Positions 29,163-62,659 of a DNA stretch of 64,000 nucleotides are shown in pieces. This DNA is from Entoloma clypeatum (Eukaryota; Basidiomycota; Agaricomycetes; Agaricales; Entolomataceae). Both the position numbers and the translations under genes were made by a program. Each line of letters opens with the position of its first letter. Position 1 is the first letter of the stretch. The notes below the pieces were generated by a model. The model did not search any database and was not told the DNA's origin. It worked only from the letters and a program-made list of their open reading frames with translations. The stretch covers positions 124,001 through 188,000 of the forward strand of contig OY751496.1 of the NCBI GenBank assembly GCA_963565915.1. Direction: 5' to 3'.

Positions 29163-29914
29163 AAGTTGTCCCCGACTTGCGCCCGTGCATCGTCTCATGT
29201 CCCTCGGCCCTCGTCACCCACGTCTCGTATGCCCCTCGCCTGCGCTTCGTGGACTGGTGCATCCAGCCCGTGTTTGTGTGTGTCCCGCGTCCCCATTCTC
29301 GTGTCTCCCACTGTTTCTCGTGTCTTGCCGTTTCTTGCATGAGTGGTCTGACGGGCAATGGATGGCGCGGTGCTTATCTATACGGGGCGTGGCCCTCGTG
29401 TGAACGGAGGGAGGGGAGGGAGTGGAGGGAGGGAGGAGGAGGAGTGAAGGTGATGGGCAACAAGTGAACATCGAAGGCTAAATACTCGGCAAGTTCTGGG
29501 CCCAGGCACCATGATGAACAGCAGAACTTGCTGACCTCGGCAACGGCCGAAAGTCAAAAACAACCCAAGTCCCACATCATGCCTGCCTCCCATCACCTCC
29601 CTACACCCACTCCCTCCACTCCCCCTCCACCCCCCATTCCCTCCTCCTCCGTCACTCACTCCCCCTCCCTTCGTTCACGAGGGACACGGAGGCCCCATAT
29701 AGGTAAGCACCGCGCCATCTGTGTCATGTCAGACGAGCAATGGCGGGAGACCTGAGAACGGGGACACGGGACATGCACAAACATGGGCGGATGCACCGGT
29801 GCACAAAGCGCAGGCGACGGGCATACGGGACGCAGGTGATGAGCACAGATGACGGCTGAGGGACATGAGACGATGCAGGTGCAAGACAGGGACCCGCCCA
29901 CGCGACACCCAAAA
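29163..29914. repeat. Large imperfect palindrome
   Basis: 29163-29460 is repeated in inverse at about 29590-29914: for example GCGCCCGTGCATCGTCTCATG against CATGAGACGATGCAGGTGC, and CCCTCGTGTGAACGGAGGG against CCCTTCGTTCACGAGGG. The inner parts are purine-rich and pyrimidine-rich tracts facing each other. This could be a TIR element of about 750 bp or a foldback repeat; I found no target duplication. Confidence 0.65.
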
Positions 29915-29926
29915 ACGGCCCCTCCC

Positions 29927-30240
29927 TTCGTTCATGCGAGGGCCAAGGACGCCCCATATAGGTAAACACCGTGCCATCCATGTCACATCAGACCACTCAC
30001 GCAAGAAACGCCGGGAGACACGAAGGAACGGCAAGACACCCAGAGCAATGGCGGGAGACACGATGAACAGGAGAGGACACGAGAAATGGCAGGAGATACG
30101 AGAACAGGGATGCGGGACACACACAAACACGGGCTGGATGCACCAGTCCACGAAGCGCAGGCGAGGGGCGTACGAGACACAGGTGATGAGGGCCGAGGGA
30201 CATGAGACAATGCACGGGCGCAAGTCGGGGACCCGCCCAC
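29927..30240 (-). repeat. Third copy of the palindrome arm
   Basis: A further copy of the arm in the same orientation as 29590-29914, with an internal expansion of a GGGAGACACGA-like motif (about 30020-30110). It ends about 65 bp before Copia-2. The flank right of Copia-2 (36098 onward) is G-rich and may continue this repeat. Confidence 0.6.
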
Positions 30241-30308: not shown

Positions 30309-30617
30309 TGTTGAAACTTTTCCCATCACGTAGATTAGATTAGATTAGATTACATCACGTGACCTTTACATATCTTCATTACATACTTGTTTGGTTGGTA
30401 CAAACAGTAGTACGGTATATAAGACCAGGAAACTGTCAATATCAACAAGTTGTCTCTTGACTCTTAACCAGCTCCATCGCTCTTACCAGCCTCAACCGCT
30501 CTCACCAGCCTTACCCCTCCAAACCATGTAAGTAATCATAGCGGTATCGTAGAGTACTTCCACTGTAGCTATGTTGCTCAGTACACCTGTGGCTAGCGCC
30601 CAGGTGGAACTTCAACA
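30309..30617 (+). repeat. Copia-2 5' LTR
   Basis: 309 bp, with a short tandem TAGAT repeat near its start, a TATATAAG box at about 30416 and a consensus splice donor GTAAGT at 30528. Repeated at 35784-36092. Confidence 0.94.
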
Positions 30618-30968
30618 GGTTATGGGCCCCGGATAGCAGAGGGACCTGGGAAACGCTGGCAACAGCGAGTACCTGCCCACTCTACCCTGGTTGGCAAAGA
30701 ACCGATCGAAAGATCTAGGTTCTGAGTCATACTTCTTCACACATGAACCTGGGAAACGTCATTACGACAAGTACCTGTCATGAGGCGTCCCTAAGGGGAT
30801 TGACATAGTACACTCCATGTGGAAACGTTGATCGCACCTTATACGTTTCTGACATATAAAGGGTTTTCCCATGACCGCTATTCCTGAAGGGAATATGTCA
30901 CAAGGAATCATTCAATTGTTTTCTCGAATCATATTCATAACACATCACTGATTGAGAACCCTTTTTAG
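30528..30968 (+). other. Putative leader intron of Copia-2
   Basis: Donor AT|GTAAGT in the LTR and acceptor CTTTTTAG at 30961-30968 with CTGAT about 20 bp before it. The gag ATG (30980) is 11 bases after the acceptor. The 441-nt segment contains the primer-binding site and no ORF of note. Same layout as Copia-1 although the leader sequences differ. Confidence 0.55.
30618..30632 (+). other. Primer-binding site of Copia-2
   Basis: GGTTATGGGCCCCGG, identical to the Copia-1 site and complementary to the anticodon arm of initiator tRNA-Met. Confidence 0.75.
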
Positions 30969-30979
30969 ATTCATTCACA

Positions 30980-33900: not shown

Positions 33901-35707
33901 ACAGGATCAACCGGAATCAGACAACGAACTGCCTGCCAGTGAGCCTGATGACGAACCGCGAGTACCCACTCCACAACCCGAGCAAGTACCAGATCGACCG
34001 ATCAGGGAACGACGAGTTCGGAAGATGCCAGGAAGCATCTATGGGGAAGACACTCCAGCATCTGATCTTGAAAAATTAGATCGAAGACGGAGATTGGGCG
34101 GTCAAACGGCATGGATGAATGACCTCCTGATGGAGGCAATATCAGTCCAAGTTGGCATCGTTGAAATGTCCCATAAAGACATATACCCTCTTCCAAATAA
34201 AGAAGACTGGTATGCGGCTGAACGTAAAGAGCTAGATATGCTCAAACGCCGCGGGGTGATCACGGAGCTAGTACCCCTGCCTGCAGGGAGGAAAGCTCTA
34301 AGGAACAAATGGGTTTACAACGAAAAGTCCGATGGGCGTCTGAAAGCGCGCCTCGTCGCAAAAGGCTTCTCACAGGTAGAAGGGATCGACTTTGATCAGA
34401 TCTTCTCACCAGTCGTAAGATATGAAACCGTCTGACTAATACTGGCATTGACAGCCCTTGAAGGGTGGTTCATGACTCTTTTGGACGTCTCATCAGCCTT
34501 CCTCTATGGAACGCTCCGTGAAGTCATTTACATGCGACAGCCTGAGGGCTACATAGTAAAAGGGAAAGAACACCTCGTGTACCAACTATTCAAAGCTCTA
34601 TATGGACTTAAGCAGGCCGCATTAGCCTGGTGGAGGGAACTTGATTCCTCCATGAAAAAGCTCGGCTTTGTCCGGCTTCACTCCGATGCGGGAGTGTTCA
34701 TTCACAAAAGTACCAATGGGGAAATTGTAATCGCCGTCATCTATGTCGACGACTCTGCTTTTCTCGGCACAAACCGGGAATATACGCTAGAAAAGAAGAA
34801 GGCCTTCATGACAACATGGGAATGCAGGGACCTAGGTCACCTAGCGCCCGATGGGGAACCAAAGGAATTTCTCTCAATCCAAATAAGGCAACGTGGGAAG
34901 AGGATCTTCATTGATCAAGTACCTTACCTTGAGAAAATTCTGGCACGCATGGGGATGAGCGAATCTAATGCCACCCATACGCCACTCCCTACGGGCTACA
35001 AACCCATGGCGTCCGAAGATGAACCCAATGCAGAACTCCAATCCAAGTACCAATCCGTCATCGGATCACTCCTATATCTGATGATTGGAACGAGGCCTGA
35101 CATCTGCTTTGTTGTAATCAAAATGTCCCAATTTTCCGCAAATCCCACCAAACGCCATTTAGAGGTGGCTAGGGATATTTGCAGATATTTGAAGGCAACG
35201 AAAAATTACGCGATCATGTACGATGGGGACTCAGGGAAAGGGATCTATGCATTCACAGACTCCGACTGGGCGTCAGATGAAAACACGAGGAGGTCTACCA
35301 CCGGCTTCTTCATATCACTGGCGTCTGGAGCAATAACATGGGTATCATCGGCGCAAAAGACCATCGCCCTCTCTTCTACAGAAGCAGAGTATATGGCACT
35401 ATCAGATTGCAGTCGCGCAGCAACATGGCTGAGAAGCATGCTTGCCGAACTTGGAATGCAGATCGGGTCAGTACCGATCTACGGAGATAACAACGGCTCC
35501 GTCTTTATCGCATCCAACCCTGTAACTGAGAAGCGATCCAAGCACATTGACGTGCGATTCCACTTCGTCAGAGAAAAAGTCTCCGAAGGAATTATTACGG
35601 TCGAATTCATCGAAGGAGTGAATAACCCTGCAGACCTTTTGACTAAGAATCTGGGGAAAATCCTCTTTTCCAAGTTTATCCCGTACTTCGGACTGATAAA
35701 GAACTAG
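30980..35707 (+). pseudogene. Copia-2 Gag-Pol polyprotein with one in-frame TGA
   Basis: 1576 codons in one frame. Gag (MDTITAFDGIDYQSWAEKM) and a low-complexity region with KKKGKGRW; protease WILDSGASLHFTHEF near 32485; HKCLGHPND and CTGCLKGKMP; integrase core with D in IHSDLKQI, D in WRVDGGGEF and E in QQNGRAERINR; RT with FSQVEGIDFDQIFSPVVR and YVDDSAFLG near 34743; RNase H AFTDSDWASDENTRR and SSTEAEYMALSD. TGA at 34433-34435 interrupts ETV|LILALTALEGW in the RT, where Arg (CGA) is the family residue. As in Copia-1, no CCHC knuckle is present in Gag. Ends with TAG at 35705-35707. Confidence 0.9.
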
Positions 35708-35776
35708 GCGAAACAAAAGTACCTATATACATATGTGGGAAAAAGTAAGATGTATTTAGAAGTATGTACTAAATAT

Positions 35777-35783
35777 GGGGGGG
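35777..35783 (+). other. Polypurine tract of Copia-2
   Basis: GGGGGGG directly before the 3' LTR. Confidence 0.75.
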
Positions 35784-36092
35784 TGTTGAAACTTTTCCCA
35801 TCACGTAGATTAGATTAGATTAGATTACATCACGTGACCTTTACATATCTTCATTACATACTTGTTTGGTTGGTACAAACAGTAGTACGGTATATAAGAC
35901 CAGGAAACTGTCAATATCAACAAGTTGTCTCTTGACTCTTAACCAGCTCCATCGCTCTTACCAGCCTCAACCGCTCTCACCAGCCTTACCCCTCCAAACC
36001 ATGTAAGTAATCATAGCGGTATCGTAGAGTACTTCCACTGTAGCTATGTTGCTCAGTACACCTGTGGCTAGCGCCCAGGTGGAACTTCAACA
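35784..36092 (+). repeat. Copia-2 3' LTR
   Basis: 309 bp, apparently identical to 30309-30617, followed by GACTT. Confidence 0.94.
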
Positions 36093-42096: not shown

Positions 42097-42685
42097 TGTC
42101 ACGTAGCGTGTTTTTCAATGTTGGAAAACGTCGGATGCATCGGAGCAGTCGGAGCGGAGTAGCGGATGAACGGATGCGACAAGTCCGACGTCTTGCAGAA
42201 AGGACCTGGCTTCAACTTATGTGTTGCGCCCCATTCTTTGACGTGGTCCTAGATTTCGGATTGGCAGATGTCGGAGGGTGAGAGGAGCGGATGTGCGGAG
42301 CGGATGTGCGGAGGTGGAGACGTGAGAAGGAGGATGAGGACGAAAGGCAAAGGAATAGATTGGTGGAACGTATGGCAACGTATAGTGACGTATAATATTC
42401 GAACTGAGGAACTACGACAGAATTCATACTACTTATAGTAAACCAGAAGTGGGTCAGTAACTACTATAGGTAAGGTGTGGATGTCGGAGTTACTCATCGG
42501 AGCAATCGGAGTACGGAGAGGAGCAAATGCAAAATCAACATCAAGATGTCTACTTGTCAGGATAATTAGAATGTTAACTAGTAGAGATGTCAATAAGTAC
42601 TATTATGAAGATCATCGGATGTCGGACCGGATAAAACGTCGGAGTCATTGGATGTGTCGGATGTATGAATTGCATGGTTATGACA
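42097..42685 (-). repeat. 3' LTR of the non-autonomous element
   Basis: 589 bp; plus-strand ends TGTCACGTAG and GGTTATGACA. Adjacent interior GTATTTTCCCCTTAGGG is the polypurine tract read from the other strand. Confidence 0.88.
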
Positions 42686-44197
42686 GTATTTTCCCCTTAG
42701 GGCTGAACCCTTGAGGCCCATAGGATATGCCATATAATTGTGTGTTGGATGCTTGCCAGAAAATGTAATCATCCGATAATGCAAGTCACTTTATACTTGG
42801 CTGCATAAGGGCCAAGGATCAGAGGAGGTCGGAGGTGCGGAGATCCGAGGTGCGGAGGTCGGAGGAAAATGCAGATGAGAAAGGATGTGCCAGCAGATAC
42901 AGAGATGATCCATATTTTGTGTCCAATTGTAAACATCATTGCAAAAGTAAACAATGACAGAAAAAGCGGAGTTGATCTGAGCAGTCGGAGGAGCGGATGT
43001 CGGATCGGAGGTGGTGGACATGGCTTGGGTGCGGATAGCAAGTGCAATCAAGCAAATGTTATAGTCTTAGGGCCAAACCCTTGAGGCACATAAGGTGAGG
43101 AATGGCAAGTCCGATGTGAGGATGAGGGAATTTGTGATGAAGGAGAGGAAGCGGAGGTACCAAGTGTGGAGGGCAAATGAATGTGTGTCGGATTGGACTG
43201 AGGTTGCAAGATGCAATGGGATGGGAGTGACAGATGTCAAGATGTCGGAGATGACTGGAGCGGAGCGGATTTGTCAGAGGTGATCGGATGTGGTATAAAA
43301 TGTCGGAAGGGATGAAGAAAGTGATTGGTGTTTTCACTGGTTGACTATTTTCCCCTTAGGATAGACGTCCCATCGTCTATCTCCAAAGATGAGAGTCATA
43401 AAGGAGGTGAAAAAAATGCGGATGTCGTCGGATATGAGAGCGGAGTAGGTCGGAAATCAGAGGTGGAGGTGTCAGAGGTGTCCTGAAAGAATCAATGTGT
43501 CGAAAAGATCATAATGCCAATTTATTGACGAGTGCCAGAGGTTGTTTGGAATGCTTGCAGATGCAAGTAGTGAACTGTCTGCAGCCAGGGTTGCAAGTAT
43601 ACACCATGTAACTGCAAGATAGGCATAGTGCAGACATCGGAGGTGACCAGAGGTCGGAGTGACCAAAGTTGGAGGACAGAGTTTGCAAAAGTGGCAACAA
43701 TACCATCTTAAGCAATAAGACGTCGAGGGCTTGCACTCTTCAGAAAATGGATGGAAAAGGTACTGGCCCAATACCCAAACAATGCAAAGATTGTGAAGTG
43801 GGTGAGCTAGTGGTATCCTATAACCATAGAAATTCGAGCCAAGCAAGGGTTTCACAAAATGTGACAGGCGTTCACCAAAAGCAAGTGGAGCGGAGTTAAC
43901 CGGAGGTCGGAGATGATCAACCACAAATGAATGGGTCAACCAAAGTGAATGGACATAAAGACAGATGATTTTGTGAATGAGGACAAGGTGGATGTTGATG
44001 ACCCAAAAAATGCGGAGACATCGGAGATGTCGGAGGTCCGCAAGCGGAGTAGGATGTTGAAGGATGAATGGAGAGATGTGTCCTAATCCAGACCTAAACT
44101 TGAAAGACCAGATTGTAAGGCCAGGATGGAATAGGATCGGAGGGGTGCAGAGTGATTGAAAGAGGGTGTCAAAGGAATGGTGTGAGTTCGAATATAC

Positions 44198-44786
44198 TGT
44201 CACGTAGCGTGTTTTTCAATGTTGGAAAACGTCGGATGCATCGGAGCAGTCGGAGCGGAGTAGCGGATGAACGGATGCGACAAGTCCGACGTCTTGCAGA
44301 AAGGACCTGGCTTCAACTTATGTGTTGCGCCCCATTCTTTGACGTGGTCCTAGATTTCGGATTGGCAGATGTCGGAGGGTGAGAGGAGCGGATGTGCGGA
44401 GCGGATGTGCGGAGGTGGAGACGTGAGAAGGAGGATGAGGACGAAAGGCAAAGGAATAGATTGGTGGAACGTATGGCAACGTATAGTGACGTATAATATT
44501 CGAACTGAGGAACTACGACAGAATTCATACTACTTATAGTAAACCAGAAGTGGGTCAGTAACTACTATAGGTAAGGTGTGGATGTCGGAGTTACTCATCG
44601 GAGCAATCGGAGTACGGAGAGGAGCAAATGCAAAATCAACATCAAGATGTCTACTTGTCAGCATAATTAGAATGTTAACTAGTAGAGATGTCAATAAGTA
44701 CTATTATGAAGATCATCGGATGTCGGACCGGATAAAACGTCGGAGTCATTGGATGTGTCGGATGTATGAATTGCATGGTTATGACA
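44198..44786 (-). repeat. 5' LTR of the non-autonomous element
   Basis: 589 bp, differing from 42097-42685 at about one base (GTCAGC against GTCAGG). About 20 CGGA per LTR on the plus strand. Confidence 0.88.
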
Positions 44787-47539: not shown

Positions 47540-49346
47540 TGTCACGTAGCATGTTTCTCAACATCGGAAAATGTCGGATGAGTCGGAGCGGAGTAGCGGA
47601 GGAGCAGAATGCGGTAAGTGCAATGTTGGCAGAAAGGACCTGGCTTCAACTTGTGCGTTGCGCCCCACTCTTTGACGTGGTCCTCGATTTCGGATTGGCA
47701 GATGTCGGATGAGCGGATGAGCGGATGAGCGGAGGTGACGGAGAGAATGCTCAAAGGCAAGTAGAGACGGATGCGAATGAGGTATAACATTGAAACGAAG
47801 GAAGTGAGTCTGGGGATGAGCGCGAGCGATATCTCTATCACACACACAAACACCAAACACAACAACGAAGACCGAACAAGTCTCGCGATGTGTACTTCTC
47901 AATCGATATAGTTCGGGGTGATGAGTGGGATCACTCAGGATGCGACTCTTCCAAACAACAATTGAATAACTCGTTTAGCGATGGCTCGATAGGTCTCGAA
48001 CAAGACTTAGAGATAGTTCTCAATAGATAATGAACCGAGGTTTGTGATTTCCGAACCAACAAGACTTCGCAAACACGACAATGACCAATACGACCAATAG
48101 ATAACACGATTTGACGATTGACAAGTTCTCGAACACACAAAACACAATTGCGACTGACTTCCGATGCAAACCAAACGATCTCGAGGCTTCAATGATACTC
48201 GCGAACGATGACAGATGCACAAGACAAATGCTATCAATTCTGGGGCACAATCTAACCTAACCTATCTACCACAAAACTACGAGATTTTATACATGAGCAG
48301 CAATAAATATAGAAAAAGGTTGCATGTGGTATCGATAAATGGTATCCAGTCAAGTGACCTTTGCTAGAGTCGTTTTGATGCGCCCATGTGGTAGACAACG
48401 CCACAGGTACGCCCCTTTTCCATATCCAAACCTCTGCCACACTGGAGAGGCCACTATTTCAATATCTTGGTTTTGCGATGTACCCGGGACGATGCCGATT
48501 AGTTACCGTGAGGTATCAGCTGCATCAATTAAGGGTCGCCTTGATAAGCCACCCATCAGATTCGGTCCCTATCAAAGTTCACCATAAGGTCATGTTGATC
48601 GCGATGTATCAAACCCGATCTCGGTCTGTATCATCCGATGTCATTTCGATATTCCTGATATGGACGATTTGGACGTGGAGCACGGCGCACGTTGACCAAA
48701 CCTCTCGCGAGAATGTCTCCGGTCAAGCCCCGATGTAGGGTAGACAGTGCTAGTGTCATTGATAACTCCAATATAACCCATCTCCTTGTTTCACGCTTCG
48801 TCGCGAGAGGCACTCGATAGTCTTTTCTATCTCGCGAGACGATCCCATAGCTCTCGAGTATCATAGCTAAGCCCATAGTGGTGACCAGCGCTATGTCCTA
48901 CATTGCCAGGGTCGCTGGTCTCTCTCTCTAACGTTGCCACTAAGTCCTCAGAATCGGAGCTCATCTAGGACTCTCTATATCCCTTAGAGATAGTGTGAAA
49001 GGGTGCAAAACGCGCAGATTTTAGGCCTAGACGCATCGCGGCCTTATCAACGTATGATATTTGAACTGAGGTTCTACGACAGGTTTGTACACTATTTATA
49101 GTAGACTAGAATGATCAGCATCACTATAAGTGATGTGCAGATATCGGAGTTGACCATCGGAACATTCGGAGTACGGAGAGTAGCAAATGAAAAGTGAACA
49201 ACATATGTCTACTTGTAAGTATGGTTGAGATGTTACGTAGTAGAAGTATATTCAATATAAATAGAATGTTTGTTGGAGTGGATGTCGGAGCGGATGAAAT
49301 GTCGGAGTTGTCGGATAAGTCGGATGTGAATCGTATGGTTATGACA
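47540..49346 (-). repeat. Gypsy-B 3' LTR, interrupted
   Basis: LTR pieces 47540-47790 and 49054-49346 (544 bp in all) flank the 1.26-kb insertion. One 8-bp unit GCGGATGA fewer than the 5' LTR accounts for the length difference. Confidence 0.88.
47791..49049. mobile_element. 1.26-kb insertion in the Gypsy-B LTR, probably a solo LTR
   Basis: Starts TGAAACGAAG and ends CCTTATCA (TG..CA), flanked by ACAT (47787-47790) and ACGT (49050-49053), a 4-bp duplication with one CpG change (5 bp AACAT/AACGT if the final A is excluded). No coding frame. Rich in short CGA/TCG-containing words. No partner copy in the window, so 'solo LTR' is an inference from the termini. Confidence 0.5.
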
Positions 49347-49372
49347 GTATTTCCCTCTTAGGGCCGAACCCT
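49347..49372 (-). other. Polypurine tract of Gypsy-B
   Basis: Read on the minus strand, CCTAAGAGGGAAATAC directly precedes the LTR start TGTCATAACC. The non-autonomous element has the counterpart CCTAAGGGGAAAATAC. Confidence 0.65.
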
Positions 49373-50019
49373 GAGGCCCAGATGAGGTAATCCACGTGAC
49401 CATTGGTTGAAAAGCTTTGTGCGTGATCTTTCTCTCTTGGCACCCAACCACAACATCTATCCCGACGTCTATCCGTTATGTCCGCTGAGAACTCACCCCT
49501 CGCCGCTCTTCGTGCTGAAAGGGAGCGCCAGAAGAAGGTCACCGAAGAGTTGGAGAGGAAGCTGCAGGAGGCAGAGGAGCGCGTGAAGGAAGATGCAGAG
49601 CGCGCGGAGGCGAAGAGGGCGGCGAAAGAGCGGAGACAAGCAGAGAGGAAGGCAGAGAAGGCGAAGGCGAAGGAACCAGTTGCGGGTGCGGGTGCGGATG
49701 TGGATGCGGATGCGGCGAATGCAGAGGTGAAGAAGGTCCGGCTGCAGGGGGTTTTCAAGAATATGCCTGCGAGTTATGAGCAGGGGAAGGAGGATTGCAC
49801 CTCCTGCTTGAAAGCGGGGGACTTGTGTTTTTGGCCATCGGAGTGAGTTTTTCCTATTTCTTTATACGCTTCGTTATTAACTTGTTCTTTAGGAATGACA
49901 ATGCTTCGTCGTGCTGGCGGTGCCAGCGTTTAAAACGAAGCTGCAGAACGGGAGCGGAAGCGGAGTCGGAGGTGAAGCGGAGGATGACCAAGGCGGTGAG
50001 GGTCGGAAAAGCTAAGGTG

Positions 50020-50407
50020 TGTTATGGACTTACCGGTTTGTATGTTACACACTTTTCCCTTCCATTGTACCTTCGTTATTTCTTTGACTCATCAGACCGC
50101 TTATTCATTTACCTTTACTCTACCATTCTCCTTTAGTATACTTCGCTCCCGCGCTGACTCGCACTCCGCAGTAGGGATTACTCAGTCCGCAGTCGTCTGA
50201 CTCACTTCGCACTGCCTTTCCGCAGTTACTGACTCATCCGCACTGCCTTCCGCAGCTACTGACTCACTCGCTACCGCTCGTAGCCAGTACTATATAAATC
50301 CCATGTACCATAGCTACATTCCTTAGATTTAGCAATCACTTTGCTCTTCGCCTTTCCACTTCCTGCATACTCTGCCCGAACCTTGGAACGGTTTGTTAAG
50401 CATAACA
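50020..50407 (+). repeat. Gypsy-A copy 2 5' LTR
   Basis: 388 bp, TGTTATGGA..GCATAACA, with a TATATAAA box at 50291-50298. Contains several CCGCAG/ACTGACTC repeats near 50165-50270. No standard primer-binding site starting TGG follows it, so priming is unclear. Confidence 0.93.
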
Positions 50408-50465
50408 AGTTGCTAAATCTCGTTAGGTTCGCCCAGAGCGAAGAGAGCAACTACCAGATGAGTCA

Positions 50466-52065
50466 AGACGTCGCGCTTCTTTGAAGACTTCACCAGTAAC
50501 CCATTCAGCACGCCAGAAGCCCGACAGGGGGAGCTAAGTCCTCGAGACAGTATTGATTTTACACTCATCCAGCAGTACATCGAATCGGAGATCCGTCGCA
50601 TCCTACAGCAGGTGCTTGACGAAGAACTAGACAACGACGAGCATCGCCCCCATGGCGAGATAGCAGAGAGCATCCATCTTGCTCGGCAACACCAGATCGC
50701 GCGTTACAACGCCCGACAGAATGAACTCGAAAGCTTTCGCGTTCAAGAAGGACCTCAGACAGGTCGGATCACAGAGATCAGAGAGTTTATCGGTGTCCAG
50801 ACAACCGTTATCAGAAGATTGATTAGGACGCTCACACCGAGACGTCCCAGAGCCACATCATCACGTCTTACTCGAAGCAGCAGATCTACACCCACTTCAC
50901 CATCGAAGAACAACAAACCGAGTACAACCGCTGGGCATGAAACGAGAGACTTGACCCCTTCTCGAGACCAACAGACGCGCAGGAACAGAGATTCCTTAGA
51001 GATTTACAGAGGAAATACTCTGAACGTTTTGCCACCGATTCCGCCGACGAGTCCCCTGACAAATTTACTTTTGACTCCGCGCAGTCAGATATCGAACAGA
51101 CGCCTAGAACAGGGACTCATTTTCAATCCTTACCTGTATCCCGAACCCCATCTTCATCCCAACAACCCGACTCCTCTTCTCCTCCGCAGACTCTAAACAT
51201 GGCAGAAGCTCCGGCTGTACAAACAATGGATACATCCAAGATCATCAAGGATCCTGGGATGTTCAAGGACAGATACACCTTTGACGAGTGGTGGAAAGCC
51301 ACCAAACTATACATTAGGTTCCAAAAGAGCCTCACAGACGATCAGAAGATTCTTGCGGTGCTATCCCGCATGATGGAAGGGTCCGGCAGACACTGGGCCA
51401 GTAACAAGTTAGACGCTCTTACCGCTGACAACGAGAACATCACCTGGCTAGGTTTTTCCGATGATATCACCACATGATTCTCCATCGCCAACAAGTCGGT
51501 CGCTGCCAAAGCGAGACTCGAAGTCCTGAAACAAGAGAAACGCACTGTTGATGAATTCTTGGATGAATTTGAAGAACTCTTGGGACTGTCAAACCTTGGC
51601 GAAGAAACTGGGAAATACATCCTAGAGAAAAACATCAACCGAAGAATCTCTGAACAAGTGGCTAGCGATGGCAAGACATACACCGATTATGCAAAGGAGA
51701 TCCGAAACAAGGGACAACAGATGGAAGGACATGCACTGGTCATCCGAGGTGGCGGCGACATGCGCACCGGATCGGGTACCACTTATGGTGGTCAGGGCAA
51801 GGCCATGGAGATCGACAAAGCAGGAGTAGCCCGTTGCTACAACTGTCAACGCTTCGGTCATCTGGCTAAAGACTGTAGCGCTCCAAAGAAGAAAGATGGT
51901 CACAAGTGTTTCAACTGTGACCAAGAAGGCCATATCGCGCGCAACTGCCGCAAGCCGAAGAAGAACTCCGGAAGGGTTAGGAAGGTGTCCGAAGAAGATG
52001 CCGAGAATGATGAAACCACAATCTTAGAAGCTGACGAGAAGGATTTTCCTGAAGGGTCCGATTAA
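50466..52065 (+). pseudogene. Gypsy-A copy 2 Gag
   Basis: From 50893 on it equals copy 1: capsid-like part and two CCHC knuckles, TGA at 50938-50940 and 51475-51477, TAA at 52063-52065. Upstream, 50466-50880 is coding-like in a different frame (FFEDFTSNPFSTPEARQGEL; QYIESEIRRILQQVLDEEL; ITEIREFIGVQTTVIRRL), absent from copy 1. It would need a frameshift near 50880 to join the knuckle-bearing frame. Whether this is a mutation or a separate leader protein is open. Confidence 0.7.
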
Positions 52066-52076
52066 ACGATGCTAAG

Positions 52077-55000
52077 TTGCGACCCTTATCTATTAAACGG
52101 ACTTGCTTGCCTTGTATGACTGCAGACAATAGAACCTATGTCATCCCTGCCAAGCGAGCCGCTGCATCGACTAAGATTGTGAAGGGAGATAAACCTCTGA
52201 AAAGACAAGAAATCAGGCTGTTAGCCCAGCTCAGGACACGACGAGGACCAAAGGTTATCTGACCTGAGGTTGACAGCGGATGTGAATGCACATGCATCCA
52301 TCCCAGAATAGTACGCGAACAGAACCTCCCCACGCGAGGAATACCGCCCATAGCAATTCTAAATGCGGATGGATCACCAAATCGACAACAGAAAGCAAAC
52401 CAACTTGCCGAAGTCAAACTGGATTTGGGAGCACATCAGGAAACCATGGAAGCAATGGTACTGGACATTGGGAGAATGGACATGCTCTTGGGACATGACT
52501 GGTTGGTGCACCACAACCCCACAATCAATTGGACAACCGGCGCGGTAACATTTAACCAGTGCCCAACAACATGTCAAACCAAACACTCGGATTTCAGGGT
52601 TAACCTGGATGGTCGCAAACACCGGGTTCGCATGGTTGAGGTGCGCGACAAAGATGCACCCAAAAAGTCGGATCAGAAATGGAAGCCTGGAGACCCTATC
52701 TTGGAAGCTGTCACTCCCACACCACCTCCCACAACCAAACGACCCTCATATGTTGAACGATTTGCTCATCTTTTCGAGAAAGAGAACTTTGATAAGATCC
52801 CAAAGGAGAGGGAATGGGACCATGGTATTGAACTTACACCGGATGCACCAAAGGAACTAGGGGGAAATACATATCCTATGACGCAAAAGGAACAAGAGGA
52901 ATTGGACGCATTCATTGACGAGGGTCTAGCAACAGGAAAGATCCGCCCATCCAAATCCCCTTATGCCTCCCCTTGCTTCTTCGTCAACAAGAAGGATGGC
53001 TCCAAACGATTGGTACAAGATTACCGCATGGTCAACAAATTTACGGTCAAAGACAAATTCCCACTCCCACGCATCTCCGACCTCTTGGACGTGCTGAAAG
53101 ATGCAGTCTACTTCAATAAAATGGACATCATGTGGGGTTATAACAATGTCCGGATTAAGGAGGGCGATGAATGGAAAGCTGCCTTCCTCACCAGTCGAGG
53201 ATTGTTCGAACCATTGGTCATGTTTTTTGGTCTTTGCAACTCCCCAGGGACATTCTCTCGAATGATGGCTAGTCTATTCCGGGACCAGATCCGCCGACGT
53301 ATCTGCATGATCTACATGGATGACATCGTGGTTATTGGTAAAACCAAGGAAGAACTCACGCGAAACACTGAAGAAATCCTACAGATCCTATCGGACAATG
53401 ATTTGTTCCTAAAGGAGAAAAAGTGTTTATGGGAAGTAACGAAATGTCCTATATTGGGATATGTGGTTGGTGAGGGACGTGTTGAGATGGAAACTGAGAA
53501 GGTGGATACAATTCAAAACTGGCGAGCACCCACATCAAAAAAGGAAGTTCAGAAGTTCCTTGGATTTGCTAACTTCTATCGACGATTTATTGAAGGGTAC
53601 TCAAACATCGCGAAACCTCTCACCGCGCTCACAGGCGGTACAGCATTTACTTGGGGACCAACGGAGCAGCAAGCTTTTGAAGGTCTCATACGGGAAATTA
53701 CATCGGCACCAGTCTTGGCATTACTGAAACCAGAGGGACAGTTCAGGGTTGAAACCGATGCATCGGGCTATGCAATTGGAGCAGTACTCTCTCAGAAGCA
53801 AGACGACAAATGGCACCCCATTGCGTTCTTGTCGCGGACCATGTCTGCGGCCGAACAAAATTATGAGATATACGACAAGGAACTCCTGGCGGTCGTGGAA
53901 GCATTGAAAGATTGGAGACACTATCTGCTTGAAGCCAGGGAACGTTTCGAGATCTTGACCGATCACAAGAACCTGGAATATTTCCGTCGTCCTCAGGACC
54001 TAAATCAATGACAGCGACGCTGGAAAATGAAGTTACAAGACTATGACTTCGAATTACGGCATGTGCCTGGCAAGACCAATGCAAAAGCGGACATCCTGTC
54101 ATGCGTACCCTGGTATGAAGCGGAACTCGAACCACAGGACAGTGACCAAATGCTCAAGGAGGGACTATTCTTGAAATGGTTGGAATCAGAAGATGTGGTA
54201 CAAATGGAGATGTTCACGGAGGAACAATTCTTTGAAGGGGGTGAAACATCTGATTCCATCAAAATTGGAAACATCACGACCATCGAAAATCCGTGGATCA
54301 CACGCATCAAGGGTTCAAACCACATGGAGACAGAAGTAGCCCAGGGTCTAAAGAAGAATCCTCATTGGTATCAACAGGAAAATGGCATTACATATGCAGG
54401 CGAACGAGTCTATGTCCTGCCAGATCCACAATTGCGACAAGAATTGATGTTTGAATCACACGATGCACCAGTGGCTGGACATCCAGGACAGTACCGGACA
54501 CATGAACTCCTCACTCGCACCTACTGGTGGCCTACCATACTGCATGATGTGAAGAAGTACGTGAAGGGTTGCGACACTTGTCAACACAACAAGATTAACC
54601 GACAAAAGCGACATGCTCCGCTACATCCCCATGCAGCACCAAGTCACCCATGGGAAGACATAGGAATCGACGTCGTGGGACCGATACCAGAATCTGATGG
54701 AAAAAACGCAATTCTGGTCATCACGGATAGACATTCAAAGATGCTTCACCTCATTCCAACAAGCGTGGAACTATTGGCTGAAGGATTAGCCAAGATCCAT
54801 CAGGATCAGATATGGAAGCTTCATGGAATCCCCAAGAAGATCATCAGCGATAGGGGACCACAGTTCGCTGCAAAATTCATGGAGATACTCTGCCGCATGT
54901 TAGGGATCAAGAGGAACCTGTCCACCGCATACCACCCACAGACTGATGGACAGGCCGAGCGATCGCATCAGGAAACAGAAGCATTCTTACGAAACTTTGT

Positions 55001-55715
55001 CAACCATCTACAGGATGATTGGGCAGAATGGATCGCAATCACAGAGTTCCAGTACAATGACAAAGAACACCAGGCAACGAAGCACACCCCATTCTACCTC
55101 AACTACGGTTTACATCCGTGGAAGGGAGAACTCGTGTTAGAAGATACCAATCCGGCTGCCAACGACTTCTTGAAAAAACTCAAACAGGCACGAGAAGAAG
55201 CCAATGCTGCGCTGAAACAAGCACAGGATCAGATGAAGAAGACAGTTGACACATGGCAAAGTCCGTCTCGGGACTACCGCATTGGAGACAAGGTGTGGCT
55301 GGAAGGGACTAACATCAGGACCAATCGACCCTCAAAGAAACTTGATGCACTCCGACATGGACCATTCAAAGTCCTAGAGAAGAAAGGAGCTAGCGCGTAC
55401 CTTCTTGATCTTCCAAAGACTTGGAAGATGATTCACCCTGTGTTCAACGAGACCCTGTTGTCACCATATGAAACTCCGAAGTACGCCATCCAGAAAAAGA
55501 AACCAGCCCCTGATCTGATCATTGTCAAAGGACAAGAAGAGTACCATGTGTCTACAATCCTGGACTCTCGAAAGTTCCGCGGAAAGATCCAGTACCTCGT
55601 CCAGTGGGAAGGATATGGCCCAGAAGAGAACACATGGGAACCGCGAGCTAATGTTCAGAACGCTCAAGATTTGATCTGTGATTTCCATCGGCAGAACCCG
55701 TCACGTCCACAATAA
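52077..55715 (+). pseudogene. Gypsy-A copy 2 Pol with chromodomain
   Basis: Same domains as the pol at 21386-25024, with TGA at 52260-52262 and 54009-54011. One amino-acid difference noted in RNase H (REITSAP here, RAITSAP in copy 1) and one near the protease end (CpG change at 52558). Confidence 0.9.
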
Positions 55716-55837
55716 AAGACACCCGTTGAAATCAGCAACAGCATCGACCTCATCAGTCAAAAACCCACCGAGTTCTCCGCTCCGTCTTCAATATAGCTAC
55801 TCCATTCTTCCTCTATCTCTCCAACATCCTCCGCACC

Positions 55838-56200
55838 ATGTCCACCGCCACCACCACATCCACTGAAACCAACCCCGCCATCACTGCCCTCATGGGTGAA
55901 GCCCTCTCCATGAGAGACCAGATCCACGCGCTAGAAGCCTCGCTCGCCGACATCCTGCATCGACAGATGCACATCCGCCTCCATTCTTTATCCGACCTCC
56001 CCGTCGCACCAACCCCCGAAGAAAAACAAATCCTTGGGAACTACACCCATACGCTGGTCATTGAAAACCGGCGCATCCAACTAGCCGTCCGGAGTCTCAA
56101 GCTCGCCGTCGCCATCAATGAAGAGCTAATAGACGATTGGAGCCTCAAGGAGAATGGTGCCTGGACAAACAACAACGATGCCGGAGGATGGGGACAATGA
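55838..56200 (+). CDS. Gypsy-A copy 2 ORF3
   Basis: Identical to the 120-aa frame at 25147-25509; intact helical protein of unknown role between pol and the 3' LTR. Confidence 0.55.
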   Translation: MSTATTTSTETNPAITALMGEALSMRDQIHALEASLADILHRQMHIRLHSLSDLPVAPTPEEKQILGNYTHTLVIENRRIQLAVRSLKLAVAINEELIDDWSLKENGAWTNNNDAGGWGQ

Positions 56201-56234
56201 CTCTGTGAGGACACAGAGCTTGAGGAGGGGAACA

Positions 56235-56622
56235 TGTTACAGACTTACCGGTTTGTATGTTACACACTTTTCCCTTCCATTGTACCTTCGTTATTTCTTT
56301 GACTCATCGGACCACTTATTCATTTACCTTTACTCTACCATTCTCCTTTAGTATACTTCGCTCCCGCGCTGACTCGCACTCCGCAGTAGAGATTACTCAG
56401 TCCGCAGTTGTCTGACTCACTTTGCACTGCCTTTCCGCAGTTACTGACTCATCCGCACTGCCTTCCGCAGCTACTGACTCACTCGCTACCACTCGTAGCC
56501 AGTACTATATAAACCCCATGTACCATAGCTACATTCCTTAGATTTAGCAATCACTTTGCTCTTCGCCTTTCCACTTCCTGCATACTCTGCCCGAACCTTG
56601 GAACGGTTTGTTAAGCATAACA
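56235..56622 (+). repeat. Gypsy-A copy 2 3' LTR
   Basis: 388 bp, TGTTACAGA..GCATAACA. One difference from the copy 1 LTR, ten from its own 5' LTR. Confidence 0.93.
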
Positions 56623-57182
56623 AGGTGGCAGGTGGTGCGATGAAGAACGCGAAGGCGGGATCGTCCAAGGGAGAGGGGACCGCGGAGGGATCGCGGATAG
56701 CCGCAGCGTTGGAGGAGCCAGAGTTCATGCCGGAGGGGTTTGGTCCGCCGGAGGTGGTCATAGGCACGGAGGTGGTGAGAGGACTTAGGAGCATGATAAG
56801 GGAGATGGGGCTGATAAAGGCAGAGTTGAAGGAACTGCGGGAGATCAAGGAGCTTTTGATGGTTATCACGTGGAGGGAGGATTCGGAGGCTTCGGAGGAG
56901 GGATCCGACGAGGATGAGGATGCGGAGGAGTATGGCTTCGGAGGAGGGATCCGACGAGGACGAGGATGTGGAGGAGTATGATAGGGTATTGGAGGAGTTG
57001 GCAAAGGAGGTAGAAGATGAAGAAGAAAAAGAAGAAGAAACGAAGAAGCGGAAGCGGATGGAGGAAGCGGAACAGGAATCCAGATCAGAGTGGAACGAGG
57101 AGATGGAGGGGGTATCTAACAAAAAACAGCGAAAGTAGTTTTTTGTTAGTATAAAATTTTAATAGATTTTCTTTTCTTTTTG

Positions 57183-60100
57183 TTACAAGCGCGATAAGGG
57201 GCCTGGCTTAGTTGGTTGAGCGGAGTGGAAGTCCACTACCGTATCCGCTGCGTGTTCAAGTTTGGATGCGGGTATCCAAGAAAACTCTTCACTGGTGTCT
57301 TCATAACCTAACCAGCGGACGAGGTAAAGGAGTTTGCAGCGTTGTCTTTTATCGATCTTTGAGTTGATGATTTCCGCAATTTCATATTCAGTTTCTCCGT
57401 CCATCTCAAGTGGAGGCGGAGGAGATTGTATCCGATTTGGAATCTCGTTAGGAGTTGCTGGTTCGAGCATGGATATAAGGAAGACGGGGTGTATAGCACG
57501 CATAGTGTCGGGTAGACGTAGTGTAAAGGAGTGCGTGCCGGGTTGGGCTATGATTTCAAATGGGCCAGCATATTTGTCGGATAACTTTTGGGTGGGTCAT
57601 GTGGTGCGGAAGAACTTGGCTTTAACAAAGACTTCTTGTCCGACGCGGAGCGGAGGAGGCGGAGAACGTCGGACGTCCGCAGGGCCTTGATAACGTTGTT
57701 GTGCCTCTGCGACAGCAGTCTTTAGTTCTTGACGTAATTCACCCAAGTCGACGATGTATTGTCGAGCTTTATCAGATGCTAGATCACATTCTGGATGGAG
57801 TGTAATGTCGGGATGATAACCTTTGTTGGCGAAGAATGGTGATACACCTGTAGTGGCACTCGGAGTGTTGTTGTAAGCGAACTCCGCAAGCGGAAGCAAA
57901 GCGGACCAGTTGTCTTGCTGGTAGTTGCAGAAAATGCGGAGGTATTGTTCGAGTGTCTGGTTGGTGCGTTCAGTTTGACCATCGCCTTCAGGTCCACGAT
58001 CGGATGTGACATTTTGCGGAACTCCGTGCTTGGAAAAGACGTGAAGCACGAAAAGGTTTGCTAGGTCTTCGGATGTGCAATTAATGGTGGTAGGGATGAA
58101 GATGCCTTGTTTAGTGAGGCGGTCTACAATGACCAGAATCACATCAGAGCCAGTGGATGTCGGAAGGGGTTCAATGAAATCCATGGAAATAGAATGCCAG
58201 GGACATTCAGGAATAGGGAGTTGTTTAAGCAGACCGTAGGGTTTATGACGTTGGGGTTTGGCGCGCATACAAGTGGTACATGACTTGCAATACTTTTTGA
58301 TGAAGTCGCGCATTCCAGGCCAAGTGTATTCTCGTTGGATAAGACTAATAGTCTTATTTTGACCAGGGTGTCTAGCGAGGATATGGTCGTGCTTATTGCG
58401 GAGGATGTGGAGACGGAGGTCGGATGAGTCGGGAACATAGATACGTCCATTGTGGAGTAGATAACCTGCTTCATTCACGATCCAGCGTGGATTAGGATTG
58501 TTGAGGAAAGAGGTGTAAATGGGATTGGTCGGAAGAGCGGAGAGGATGTCGGAGCGGAGCTGATCCGTATCCATGATGATTGTGGCACGGAGGACAGGCG
58601 TATATAACTCTGTTGCGCGAAGTGAAGTGGTGAGCTGTTCTTGTGTGAAGATGGGTTTGAAGTTGCTTGGATTGACGGACGAATAGTCGCTATTTCCCTC
58701 TTTAGGGTAGACGTCCCATCGTCTACTTAAAAGATCGGGCTTCGTACCTAAATGGCCAGAGCGGAAGCGGATGACGAGATTGAACTGGCAGAGGTATTCG
58801 GACCAACGAGCTTGTCGACGTGATAAAATCTTGGTAGTAGAAAAGTACTCAAGATTTTTGTGGTCTGTTATGACATCGATCGGAGCAGCGGAGCCTTCAA
58901 GGTAGTGATGCCAAACCTTGAATGCATTGTGGATCGCTAATAGTTCTTTGTCGTGGGTGTCATAGTTTAACTCGGGAGGTGTAAAGGTGCGGGAGTGGAA
59001 AGCAACCAGATGGATTTCGTCGTCGGAGGTGTGGATGGAGAGGATCGCACCCAAAGCGTAGTCGGAGGCATCGGTTTCGACGATAATAGGGCTGTCGGGA
59101 ATCCAATGCGTAAGAACAGGTGCCATGGTAAAGGCTTTCTTCAAAGTTTTGAAAGATTCACGAGTGGAGTCGGAGAAATGCCATTGTGTGTTTTTGCGGG
59201 TGAGTTGAGTGAGCGGAACAGTGATTTCGGAGTAGTAAGGAATGAATCGTCGATAAAAATTTGCAAAACCTAAGAAAGACTGAATGTCTTTGACCTTCCT
59301 TGGTTCAGGCCAATCTTGAATAATTTTGACTTTCTTATCCGACATGCGGAGGCCTGTCGGAGAGAGGATAAAGCCAAGGTATTCAACAGTATCCGTAGAA
59401 AACTCGCATTTGTCTGTGCGTGCATATAAGCCATGTTGTCGGAGACGTCGGAGGACTTCGCGGACATGCTTCCAATGCTCGGAGGGAGAGTCGGAGTAGA
59501 TGAGGATGTCGTCGAGATATATGGTAACATACTTATCGAGCAGGTTGTGGAAGATGTCGTTCATGAAGCATTGGAAAACGGCTGGGGAGTTGGTGAGTCC
59601 AAATGGCATGACAAGCCATTCAAAAGACCCGTAGCGCGTGCGGAAGGCAGTTTTCCATTCATCTCCTTCCGCTATGCGGACGAGGTGATAGGCGTGTCGG
59701 AGGTCGAGAGCCGTATAAACACTGGCTTTTCCAGCGGTCTGGAGAAGGTCGGATATGAGCGGAAGCGGATATCGGTCCTTCTTTGAGATTTTGTTAAGAC
59801 CACGGAAATCGACGCAAAGACGAAGGGAGCCATCCTTTTTATGAACGAAAAGGACAGGAGCAACGTGCGGAGAGGAAGAGGGTCAGATGAATCCAATGGT
59901 GAGGTGTTCGTCAATGAATTCACGGAGGGCATTGAGTTCGGTTTGTGAAAGGGAGTAGATCGGACCGAACGGAGGAGCGGAGCCCTCTTCAAGTTCAATC
60001 TTGAGGTCGTAGGGACGGTGGGGTGGAAGAGTGTCTGCTTTTCCTTTACTGAAGACATCAGCATAGTTGTGGTATTCTTCGGGTACGTTTGTCAAGTCAG

Positions 60101-60776
60101 GGGTGTCGGAAGCGGATGCGGAGTGAGCGGAAACGGAGGGAGTCGAAAGGTGAAGTCGAAAGGATTGTGTACCAGGCAATTTGCATGCCCTCATAAATGC
60201 GTTAATGAGTGAAATCTGCGGAGCGGACTGCGGAGGTACAATCAGAGGTTCCGGAGGAGGAAGCGTAGCTGTCCTACCTTGGGAGGAGGTTGACGTCGAT
60301 GTCGGAAACGGCTCTTTTTGCATCTGTGGACGGAAAGTGATACTGCCCAATATCCAGTCAATCATAGGATTGTGGCGGGTGAGCCAGTTGTATCCAAGAA
60401 CCACGGAAGAAGCGGAGTCGAGCGGAGTAACATAAAAATCCTGTTCGAAAGATTCACCTGAAGGAAAACATATAGGTATTGTTACAACTTGAGTGATAAA
60501 CATGTTAGAAGAACCATCGAAAAGCTTTAGTTCTAAAGGCGGAATAGCGGAGGTCAGAAGATCATAAGCGGAGGAAAAGTTAATGTCAATAAAACAGTGG
60601 GTAGATCCTGAATCAATAAGTGCTGGGACAGAATGTGAAGAGAAAAAAGAAGATGAGATATTGATACGTAAAGAGTTTGGATTGGAGAGAGTGGACGCGT
60701 TAAGTTGGATGGGAGCGGAGGCACGGAGAGAGTCAACGCAGTCCTCAGACCATGCTTCATGAGGACCACTGCCTAT
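57183..60776 (-). pseudogene. Gypsy-B Pol with integrase deletion and two TGA codons
   Basis: In the -1 frame relative to gag. Protease ALIDSGSTHCFIDINF near 60620; RT with FVHKKDGSLRLCVDFRGLN, MPFGLTNSPAVFQ and IYLDDILIYS near 59515; RNase H ETDASDYALGAIL and TDHKNLEYFST; integrase zinc finger (HILARHPGQ .. CKSCTTCMRA); core D in SMDFIEPLP and D in VTSDRG; then directly PEGDGQTERTNQT with the E. In intact relatives about 25 residues stand between DRG and PEGDGQ, so an in-frame deletion (near 57990) removes most of the D-35-E spacing. Chromodomain YLVRWLGYEDTSEEFSW at the C-terminus. TGA at 59883-59885 (GFI|PSSSP) and 57597-57599 (FRTT|PTQKLS) each stand where the family has Arg. Confidence 0.9.
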
Positions 60777-60782
60777 TTTTTT
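60773..60782 (-). promoter_or_regulatory. Likely -1 ribosomal frameshift site between Gypsy-B gag and pol
   Basis: On the minus strand the gag end reads TCA AAA AAA TAG. The heptamer A AAA AAA fits the X XXY YYZ rule, and the pol frame is exactly -1 from gag, open from ATA GGC onward through the protease. The stop follows the slippery codons at once, as in classical cases. Confidence 0.7.
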
Positions 60783-62056
60783 GACTCAATCTCCTTACCT
60801 TTTTCCTTGGCTTGAGTGCCAACTTGGGCGGCTTTCCCTTTAGCCTTGGAAGCGGAGGAGGTGGACTTGGGACAGTCCTTGAAAGCGTGTCCAACGCTAC
60901 CGCAGAATAAGCAAAGGTTATTATCGAAACGATGTTTGCGTTCTTGATACGTCAGTTTGCCGTCTTTGCCTAATTTACTGGAGAGGTCGGGTTTCGGAGC
61001 GGATGTGGAAGCAGAAGCGGTAGTGGGAGCGGAGGGTTTGGTTGATGATGTTTGTGGAGTGGATTGGTTCGGAGCGGATTGTTTCTTGAGAGTGGGTTTA
61101 TCGGTTCTGGATTTCTCTCGTTGACGTTCCCAGTAGCGAGTGTCAATAGTATGAGCCGCGGATCATAGGTCTGGTAAAGACTTGATCTTGGGTTGTTGGG
61201 AGAGGATGTCCTTGATCCGATCCAGAAGTCCGACATAGTAGCGGTGTCGGAGGGAGTTTTCATCCCAGTCAGTCTTGGTAGCAAGACGTTGGAATTCAAT
61301 GTTGTACTTCAATATCTTTTGATTTTCCTTCATCCGTAGGTTGTCCAACTGTTCTTCGGCTTCGCCCTGAGGGTCAATGGTACCAAACTCGGAGCGGAGA
61401 AGTCGGACGAACTCGGGGAAAGAACCCCGCCAATTGGGTTCATCATCGTCTAGAATGAAGGGTTCAAAAAATTCGAGTGCTGTGCCTCGGAAGTAAGACA
61501 TGGCAAAGTTGACTTTGGAATGTTCTGAGTCGAAGTTGTCATTGTCGGAGAAGTAAAGTTTGCATTGTAAAATGAATGCGGAGAGTTTGCGCGGATCGGA
61601 TCCGTCGAAGGTATCTGGTTCGTTGGCATATGACTTTTTCTTCTTTGTATCTCGATGTTTCAACTCTTTGGTCATGAGCAGAATGGCTTCAGCTAGATTG
61701 GGTTCCTGATCTGCATTGGAATCGGAGTCGTCCAAATCTCCATGTAAACTACCATCGGAAGGAGGAGGAGATCCTCCTGGAGGTCCGCCGAATAAGCCAG
61801 AATTTAGAGGTGCGGAGGGTTCCGTTGGTGGGTTTAGTGGAGGACTGGCAGGAAGTGGTGGGAGCTGAGAGTCGGAAGAGGGCGGAGGAACAGATGGTCC
61901 GGGGGTAGGAGCGGATGATGATGCTGTGGCTCCTCGAGGGGTAATGGTTACATTGCGTGTTCCTCGAAGAAAAGCAGAGCGTGGTGTGGAGGATGAACGT
62001 TCTGCTGCTGCACGAGCAGTCCTAGTTGTTCAAACTGTATTACGGGTTTGAGACAT
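60773..62056 (-). pseudogene. Gypsy-B Gag with two TGA codons
   Basis: 428 codons from ATG at 62056. Ser/Pro-rich start, Gag domain (PDTFDGSDPRKLSAFILQC; YFRGTALEFFEPFI; EEQLDNLRMKENQKILKYN), basic linker and one CCHC knuckle CLFCGSVGHAFKDC. TGA as codon 9 (62030-62032) and at 61163-61165 (SLPDL|SAAHTID), both fitting CGA. It ends in SKK-stop with the stop TAG at 60773-60775 right after a run of seven A. Confidence 0.85.
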
Positions 62057-62107
62057 GTGGGTAGAGGTTGTTGGGTAAATCAAAGAATGGTGGTAGTTCA
62101 AATATAC

Positions 62108-62659
62108 TGTCACGTAGCGTGTTTCTCAACGTCGGAAAACGTCGGACGAGTCGGAGCGGAGTAGCGGAGGAGCGGAATGCGGTAAGTGCGACGTTGGCAG
62201 AAAGGACCTGGCTTCAACTTGTGCGTTGCGCCCCACTCTTTGACGTGGTCCTCGATTTCGGATTGGCAGATGTCGGATGAGCGGATGAGCGGATGAGCGG
62301 ATGAGCGGAGGTGACGGAGAGAATGCTCAAAGGCAAGTAGAGACGGATGTGAATGAGGTATAACGTATGATATTTGAACTGAGGTTCTACGACAGGTTTG
62401 TACACTATTTATAGTAGACTAGAATGATCAGCATTACTATAAGTGATGTCCAGATATCGGAGTTGACCATTGGAACATTCGGAGTACGGAGAGTAGCAAA
62501 TGAAAAGTGAACAACATATGTCTACTTGTGAGTATGGTTGAGATGTTACGTAGTAGAAGTATATTCAATATAAATAGAATGTTTGTTGGAGCGGATGTTG
62601 GAGCGGATGAAATGTTGGAGTCGTCGGATAAGTCGGATGTGAATTGTATGGTTATGACA
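62108..62659 (-). repeat. Gypsy-B 5' LTR
   Basis: 552 bp. I count about 21 CGGA on the plus strand, including an 8-bp tandem GCGGATGA (three units), against about two expected for a random tetramer; TCCG is nearly absent. It differs from the 3' LTR mostly by CpG transitions. Confidence 0.92.

Follow-up and report, generated by a model that had tools for sequence, protein, structure and literature searches.

An antisense gene with zinc-cluster-like cysteine spacing and a one-strand excess of CGGA in a Gypsy retrotransposon of Entoloma clypeatum

The 64-kb stretch of the Entoloma clypeatum genome analysed here (positions 124,001 to 188,000 of contig OY751496.1, assembly GCA_963565915.1; hereafter the window) is a nest of long terminal repeat (LTR) elements. 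It lies on C15 of the 20 contigs (60 Mb) that were searched. One of its elements, Gypsy-B, carries a gene antisense to its gag and pol (49478-57138) that encodes a protein with the cysteine spacing of fungal zinc clusters, and the antisense-gene strand of the element is rich in the word CGGA. A preliminary description of this DNA had brought the two features together, and that observation is confirmed: the gene is conserved in two families of elements, and CGGA occurs on one strand far above chance, clustered head to tail. Whether the antisense protein binds CGGA words within its own family of elements and keeps the LTR promoter open, in the way of the VANC proteins, we regard as evenly poised, both the binding and the anti-silencing being inferred.

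The antisense gene and the CGGA words

The antisense gene lies on the plus strand, between the chromodomain of Gypsy-B and its 3' LTR, and has one intron. A distance of 131 bp separates its start, beside a CGGA cluster, from the 3' LTR edge, and the gene is transcribed away from the LTR. Exon 1 (49478-49842) encodes a charged, helix-like region and the first cysteine triad, CTSCLKAGDLC, and is followed by an intron of 50 nt (49843-49892, plus strand, GTGAGT..TAG). Exon 2 is found in two pieces on the plus strand, the first (49893-50019) with the second triad, CWRCQRLKRSC, and the second (56623-57138, up to the stop codon) with another helix-like region, an acidic tail and basic patches; a short stretch of the tail is moreover duplicated in this copy. 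Between the pieces lies a different LTR element, Gypsy-A (50020-56622, plus strand, target duplication AGGTG), and the interval 49478-57138 is the antisense gene with this later passenger inside.

The frame is kept in other copies of the family. Exon 1 gave at least 145 matches in the genome, and by hand count 31 of 145 contain a stop. Among the 30 best Gypsy-B loci a complete protein of 305-322 residues with the C-terminus NKKQRK is encoded in 23, and the six-cysteine pattern is present in 27; two loci for which start or splice was not parsed (L011 and L014) were scored as not intact. Both LTRs were located in 11 Gypsy-B copies; in five of these the two LTRs are 100% identical and the 5-bp target duplication is perfect. 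In one of the five, L045, the gag and pol frames are long and open and the antisense gene is intact (it occupies the same place as locus L016). The family was therefore active recently.

A homologous gene was found at the same position in two elements of a sister family, D1 (L059) and D2 (L060), and the sister-family exons gave at least 152 and at least 164 genome matches. The chromodomains of D1 and D2 are 69-70% identical to that of Gypsy-B. Their antisense proteins show far lower identities of 33% and 37%, respectively, and the gene therefore evolves fast. The intron at the same residue position, the six cysteines and a nearly identical C-terminus are shared nevertheless, with a linker between the triads of 8 residues in D and 11 in Gypsy-B. 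D1 and D2 are nearly identical over most of the sequence read, apart from the later part of exon 2: there 64-77 of 100 columns match in four windows, as compared to about 97-100% on both sides (gaps set aside), and the amino acid identity is 65%. It looks as if the C-terminal part of the protein has been exchanged between lineages by recombination.

The words themselves were counted in the intact copy L045. The antisense-gene strand holds 188 CGGA and 34 TCCG, as compared to 47 and 28 in dinucleotide shuffles (z 22.8 and 1.3), and the CGGA:TCCG ratios are 22:0 in the LTR, 31:5 in the antisense gene, 88:17 in pol and 25:11 in gag. The window copy behaves alike, with 21/0 in the 5' LTR, 96/20 in gag plus pol and 22/5 in the antisense gene. 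The earlier estimate of about 21 CGGA on one strand of the 552-bp LTR is thereby exact, whereas the equal density proposed for gag, pol and the antisense gene did not hold: the LTR carries about 38 per kb and the other parts about 19-22. Shuffling synonymous codons leaves 45.8 +- 4.5 CGGA in pol and 14.5 in gag, where 88 and 25 are seen, and the words in pol are spread over the three codon phases (36/27/25). When all 4- to 6-mers were scored, CGGA was the top 4-mer in Gypsy-B, in D1 and D2 and in the non-coding element C described below, and in none of Gypsy-A, Copia1 and Copia2. The density is far above that of unrelated elements, as the preliminary description had expected: two Gypsy-A copies and two Copia elements of the window, together with four further stretches, lack a CGGA excess (z -1.8 to 0.7). 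The Gypsy-A copies show a modest excess of TCCG (42 observed, 20.7 expected, and 37 observed, 16.8 expected); the one inside the antisense gene has 23 CGGA beside its 42 TCCG. The preferred context of CGGA is a G or T before the word and, less sharply, a G or T after it.

Since the excess withstands both kinds of shuffle, extends over all codon phases and puts CGGA at the head of the 4-mers, the words are selected as nucleotide sequence, irrespective of what reads them. A density that is a mere by-product of composition, codon use or mutational bias is extremely improbable. Some of the CGGA words in the antisense gene do stem from GCGGAG and GCGGAT codon pairs, and AGGA and GGAG are strand-biased as well, less strongly than CGGA by the 4- to 6-mer score; yet by the shuffles and this scoring composition and codon use do not account for CGGA, and the densest parts are the non-coding LTRs. 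Decay moreover acts against the motif. An old copy, L061, retains 13 CGGA in 1556 bp (L045 has 44 in 1440 bp) and contains 29 CAGA and 18 TGGA, a loss that may reflect CpG decay, as would be expected where DNA is methylated.

In the LTRs the CGGA sites form head-to-tail clusters with 8 bp as the commonest gap (7 bp, 7 times; 8 bp, 15; 9 bp, 10; 5 bp, 5; pooled over three LTRs). Gaps of 7-10 bp account for 14 of 21 in the LTR of Gypsy-B (3.5 at random), 11 of 21 in D (3.8) and 9 of 20 in element C (2.9), and are frequent in the internal region of element C (10 of 30, random 2.5) and in pol (21 of 87, random 8.3). The LTRs of Gypsy-B and D are 56% identical and have similar gap lists. Eleven of the 22 CGGA sites are kept in place between them (84 of 530 4-mers overall, p 1e-4), and 15 of 22 between Gypsy-B and element C (187 of 530, p 0.002), p values that are generous because alignment programs favour shared words. 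This retention is seen although words containing CpG are expected to be the most mutable.

The LTR of L045 contains a TATAAA word with CGGA clusters on both its sides. Such a layout would suit a host zinc-cluster factor, or another host DNA-binding protein, that uses the words as promoter sites and leaves the antisense protein a different job, for example to restrict or assist particle assembly. The genome offers candidates, with 18 Zn_clus matches that all score over the cut-off. A promoter has no need, however, of enrichment at the synonymous positions of pol, and the base flanking the word differs between two families in a single host, as with family-specific binders, so that we consider a host reader rather improbable.

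The words also occur where genes do not. Element C (42097-44786, minus strand, target duplication AAATG) has LTRs that are 75% like those of Gypsy-B and are identical to each other over their first 464 bases, and in its internal region neither gag nor pol nor the antisense gene is matched. It contains 72 CGGA and 6 TCCG (42097-44757), of which the internal region has 36 and 4, respectively. In the genome 36 of the 41 LTR matches listed are 97-100% identical (40 of 446 candidates were scored), and element C would therefore have been active recently. Words retained by a derivative that has lost all its genes suggest a motif that acts in cis and something that acts in trans. Runs of three CGGA words spaced 1-8 bp apart number 7873 on one strand of the genome and 7934 on the other, as compared to 750 and 804 for the reversed pattern. 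CGGA-dense stretches on contig C1 (near 473, 510-515 and 1104-1109 kb) are not among the matches listed for Gypsy-B or D, and further families may share the arrays.

Proposed role of the antisense protein

If the antisense protein recognises its own family, it would be a DNA-binding protein of the nucleus, with the two triads of its binuclear zinc-cluster-like domain in swapped order, with flanking helices that may serve self-assembly, and with an acidic tail. After entering the nucleus it would bind the CGGA arrays of its family in trans, coat the element cooperatively and keep the LTR promoter open, through activation, through the countering of DNA methylation or through both, as VANC does for VANDAL. 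Dense sites through the coding DNA would make the whole element the target, beyond the promoter, and element C, with its sites retained, could exploit the protein. The regulator-like layout noted earlier is present, as judged by eye: long, charged, helix-like stretches on both sides of the cysteines, an acidic stretch and basic ends.

We advance only tentatively, and with some doubt, the wider claim that fungal LTR retrotransposons have independently evolved a VANC-like self-recognition of their own, comprising a circularly permuted Zn2Cys6-type antisense protein, closely spaced one-strand CGGA arrays, head to tail, over the whole element and its coding DNA, the defeat of silencing, co-divergence of protein and motif, exchange of one part of the protein by recombination and non-coding parasites. 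If true, sequence-specific anti-silencing would have a second, independent origin that involves neither plants nor DNA transposons, and selection for binding sites would have reshaped the synonymous codons throughout a pol gene.

A number of findings weigh against the role proposed for the protein, and the first of them concern the domain. The spacing CX2CX6CX11CX2CX6C of the Gypsy-B protein is exact, as described earlier, and two CX2CX6C triads are present in both Gypsy-B and D. Membership of the canonical Zn2Cys6 class did not survive: the Pfam family Zn_clus (PF00172) scores 9.5 bits for the Gypsy-B protein, where the cut-off is 21, and is not listed for D. It is reported at all for one of the three antisense proteins tested, and aligns with its profile positions 2-15 to residues 132-145, that is, to the second triad only; isolated single triads of Gypsy-B and D had no Zn_clus match in Pfam. 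The net charges of the first and second triad loops are 0 and +3 in both families, the basic loop being QRLKRS in Gypsy-B and IKDKKK in D. In three canonical domains of the same genome (four of eight loci could be parsed, and three were used) the charges are +5, +4 and +4 in the first loop and +2, -1 and 0 in the second. The basic triad of the antisense proteins is thus the second one, where canonical Zn2Cys6 domains have it first.

These loop charges, the weak and partial Zn_clus match and the resemblance that we take CTSCLKAGDLCFW to have to canonical second triads suggest a permuted zinc cluster, with scores that are below significance. Such a cluster would add a new arrangement to a DNA-binding fold that is very common in fungi. 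Compared with solved structures, the zinc region had a single match that looks due to chance (E 1.2), and protein database searches for relatives with the whole protein, with residues 93-170 and with an alignment of three sequences found no match, a weak negative as the collection may contain few fungi.

The test for selection within Gypsy-B also weighs against that role. Variants were counted among 30 loci once CpG-type changes, 127 across both exons, had been removed. Exon 1 has 8 synonymous and 11 nonsynonymous ones where neutrality predicts 5.5 and 12.9 (N/S 0.58, P 0.13), and exon 2 has 5 and 20 where it predicts 6.3 and 17.3 (N/S 1.47, P 0.81); with these small counts neither exon departs from neutrality. 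By the same measure pol is constrained (49 synonymous and 41 nonsynonymous, neutral 25.8 and 61.8; N/S 0.35, P<0.001); gag, in 17 copies, has 11 and 17 (neutral 7.7 and 19.2, P 0.12). When only variants common to at least two copies are taken, exon 1 has 4 synonymous and 2 nonsynonymous ones (P 0.04), a hint of constraint that exon 2, with 1 and 6, does not give. The Gypsy-B copies therefore speak against strong recent constraint on the antisense protein.

Further points of this kind concern the words. AGGA is strand-biased too (61:23 in Gypsy-B, 28:4 in element C, 29:3 in D1), and part of the CGGA signal is a wider bias towards a G-rich strand. Neither gag (2 of 24 gaps) nor the antisense gene (2 of 30) shows a surplus of the 7-10 bp spacing. 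The sister family is known from its last 1.9 kb only, with gag and most of pol outside. On the favourable side, a T precedes CGGA at 22 of 22 sites in the LTR of D1 and at 10 of 22 in that of Gypsy-B (p 6e-5), and at 43 of 57 and 62 of 166 sites, respectively, in all sequence at hand (p 6e-7), though this difference is based on two families only. Taken with the change in the protein loop it would be the trace expected of a changing binder, though two families cannot prove co-evolution.

The lack of clear purifying selection within Gypsy-B could also mean that what counts is chiefly the antisense transcript, or a decoy function in RNA silencing, the protein being dispensable; antisense transcription of LTR elements is discussed as a possible source for RNA silencing (PMC7264820). 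We hold this to be very unlikely, since the intron position, the six cysteines and the C-terminus are conserved between families at 33-37% identity and 23 of 30 Gypsy-B copies are intact. Between D1 and D2, moreover, dN/dS is 0.38 over 140 aligned codons of the later part of exon 2 (synonymous changes at 41 of 92 sites, nonsynonymous at 72 of 328, Fisher p 3e-5), and the protein is therefore constrained between these sister subfamilies. The expected purifying selection is thus found between D1 and D2 and is not evident within Gypsy-B.

The main rival, and a live one albeit unlikely, is a role at the RNA level, in which Gag or a host protein would bind UCCG arrays in the sense genomic RNA so as to package, export or stabilise it, the antisense protein being unrelated or itself the RNA binder. 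The near-total orientation bias of CGGA fits a signal on one RNA strand and counts against a DNA-level reading. The reverse word is close to chance in the whole copy (34 seen, 28 expected) and in pol (17 seen, 14.5 left by the synonymous shuffle), though gag has 11 where 6.3 are expected, and a packaged parasite would be expected to retain the words, as element C does. CGGA contains CGG, however, the typical core of zinc-cluster sites, and words over the whole element would seem to exceed the needs of a packaging signal. Also against an RNA role, the core bound by the zinc-cluster protein Pho7 is TCG(G/C)A (PMC5559640), and arrays of a single orientation are described for the DNA binder VANC21 as well (PMC5735166).

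For the regulator suggested by the preliminary description, the conserved frame and the CGGA density stand, the canonical Zn2Cys6 assignment does not, and activation or anti-silencing we infer only.

Gypsy-B and its neighbours in the window

Gypsy-B occupies 47540-62659 and reads in sense on the minus strand, where all its parts except the antisense gene lie. Its LTRs of about 552 bp are 96-97% alike across two shared blocks. The 5' LTR (62108-62659, 552 bp) is followed by gag (61163-62029, Retrotrans_gag and DUF4939), the protease region (59883-60785, RVP_2), a region of reverse transcriptase, RNase H and integrase H2C2 (57597-59882) and the 3' end of pol with the chromodomain (57183-57503, Chromo E 2.7e-8), as assigned by Pfam, which lists H2C2 and no integrase core family for this copy. 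The 3' LTR, recognised by LTR matches, is split by a 1260-bp insert (47789-49048) into a U3-side part (49049-49346) and another part (47540-47788). With gag, protease, reverse transcriptase, RNase H, integrase H2C2, a C-terminal chromodomain and 5-bp target duplications, Gypsy-B is a chromovirus of the Ty3/Gypsy type.

The Gypsy-A copy inside the antisense gene has a sense open reading frame of 120 amino acids between pol and its 3' LTR (55838-56200), and its LTRs contain five TCCGCA words each (at 50165-50254 and 56380-56469), a modest repeat in the orientation opposite to the Gypsy-B words. The second Gypsy-A copy lies at 20200-25843, as judged from 300 nt at 100%, an LTR-like match of 97% and pol frames that are near-identical by eye. 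In the Copia element at 30309-36083 the word AGTACC occurs 15 times on the plus strand and the word GGTACT is absent; the first open reading frame has 8 where 1.8 are expected by synonymous shuffle, making this another possible self-enriched motif. The window further contains an array with 20-bp periodicity (26432-28043; the repeat search finds a 137-nt stretch there in 20 register copies) and an inverted repeat (29168-30232) with 157-nt arms that are 91% complementary and 751 nt apart.

Comparison with known systems

Among viruses the closest likeness is to HBZ of HTLV-1, the bZIP protein of a retrovirus, which is also encoded by an antisense gene near the 3' LTR and is a probable transcription regulator; we know of no self-enriched motif in that virus. 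An antisense promoter in the 3' LTR of HTLV is mentioned in PMC7264820.

With Zn2Cys6 regulators such as Pho7, which binds an asymmetric site, and AlcR, cited in the same paper as a monomeric binder (PMC5559640), the antisense protein shares six cysteines in two CX2CX6C triads and a basic loop in one of them. It differs in that the basic triad is the second and in its Zn_clus score below the cut-off.

The position of the gene is not new. For years genes in antisense have been described between pol and the 3' LTR of plant and fungal elements, with no function assigned to them (PMC7264820, section 5), and the fungal Gypsy element Boty has such a gene, brtn (cited in PMC7264820; mentioned in PMC8365987). 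These antisense open reading frames (aORF-3R) have the same place and orientation and occur in many copies, and the protein of Grande is reported to be nuclear. No DNA motif is named for them in the cited section, whereas Gypsy-B, as far as descriptions can be compared, has both a zinc-cluster-like domain and a self-enriched motif. The preliminary view that no fungal retrotransposon had been described in this way is therefore too broad as regards the antisense gene; for its link to a motif, a literature search of titles and the beginnings of abstracts found no fungal retrotransposon protein tied to a self-enriched motif. Apparently new, on that search, is the combination in an LTR retrotransposon of an antisense gene with a self-enriched motif that extends into coding DNA. 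The antisense gene has an obvious candidate target here, namely nearly 200 short sites in its own element.

Finally, the parallel drawn with VANC of the VANDAL transposons is a close one. VANDALs are DNA transposons, whereas Gypsy-B has the reverse transcriptase, RNase H, integrase H2C2, chromodomain and LTRs of a retrotransposon. In Arabidopsis, VANC and VANDAL form an anti-silencing system for which binding and the loss of methylation have been measured (PMC5735166, PMC10398659), whereas the Gypsy-B system is known from sequence alone. The motifs of VANC21 are described as having one orientation and a high density and as lying mainly in non-coding regions (PMC5735166); the words of Gypsy-B fill coding DNA too, with the LTRs densest and pol and gag enriched at the synonymous level. 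VANDAL21 subfamilies differ at one position of the motif (PMC5735166), as Gypsy-B and D do at a flanking position. Both systems thus combine an element-encoded protein with a short motif of the same element, dense and in one orientation, and in both the targets would diverge with the protein.

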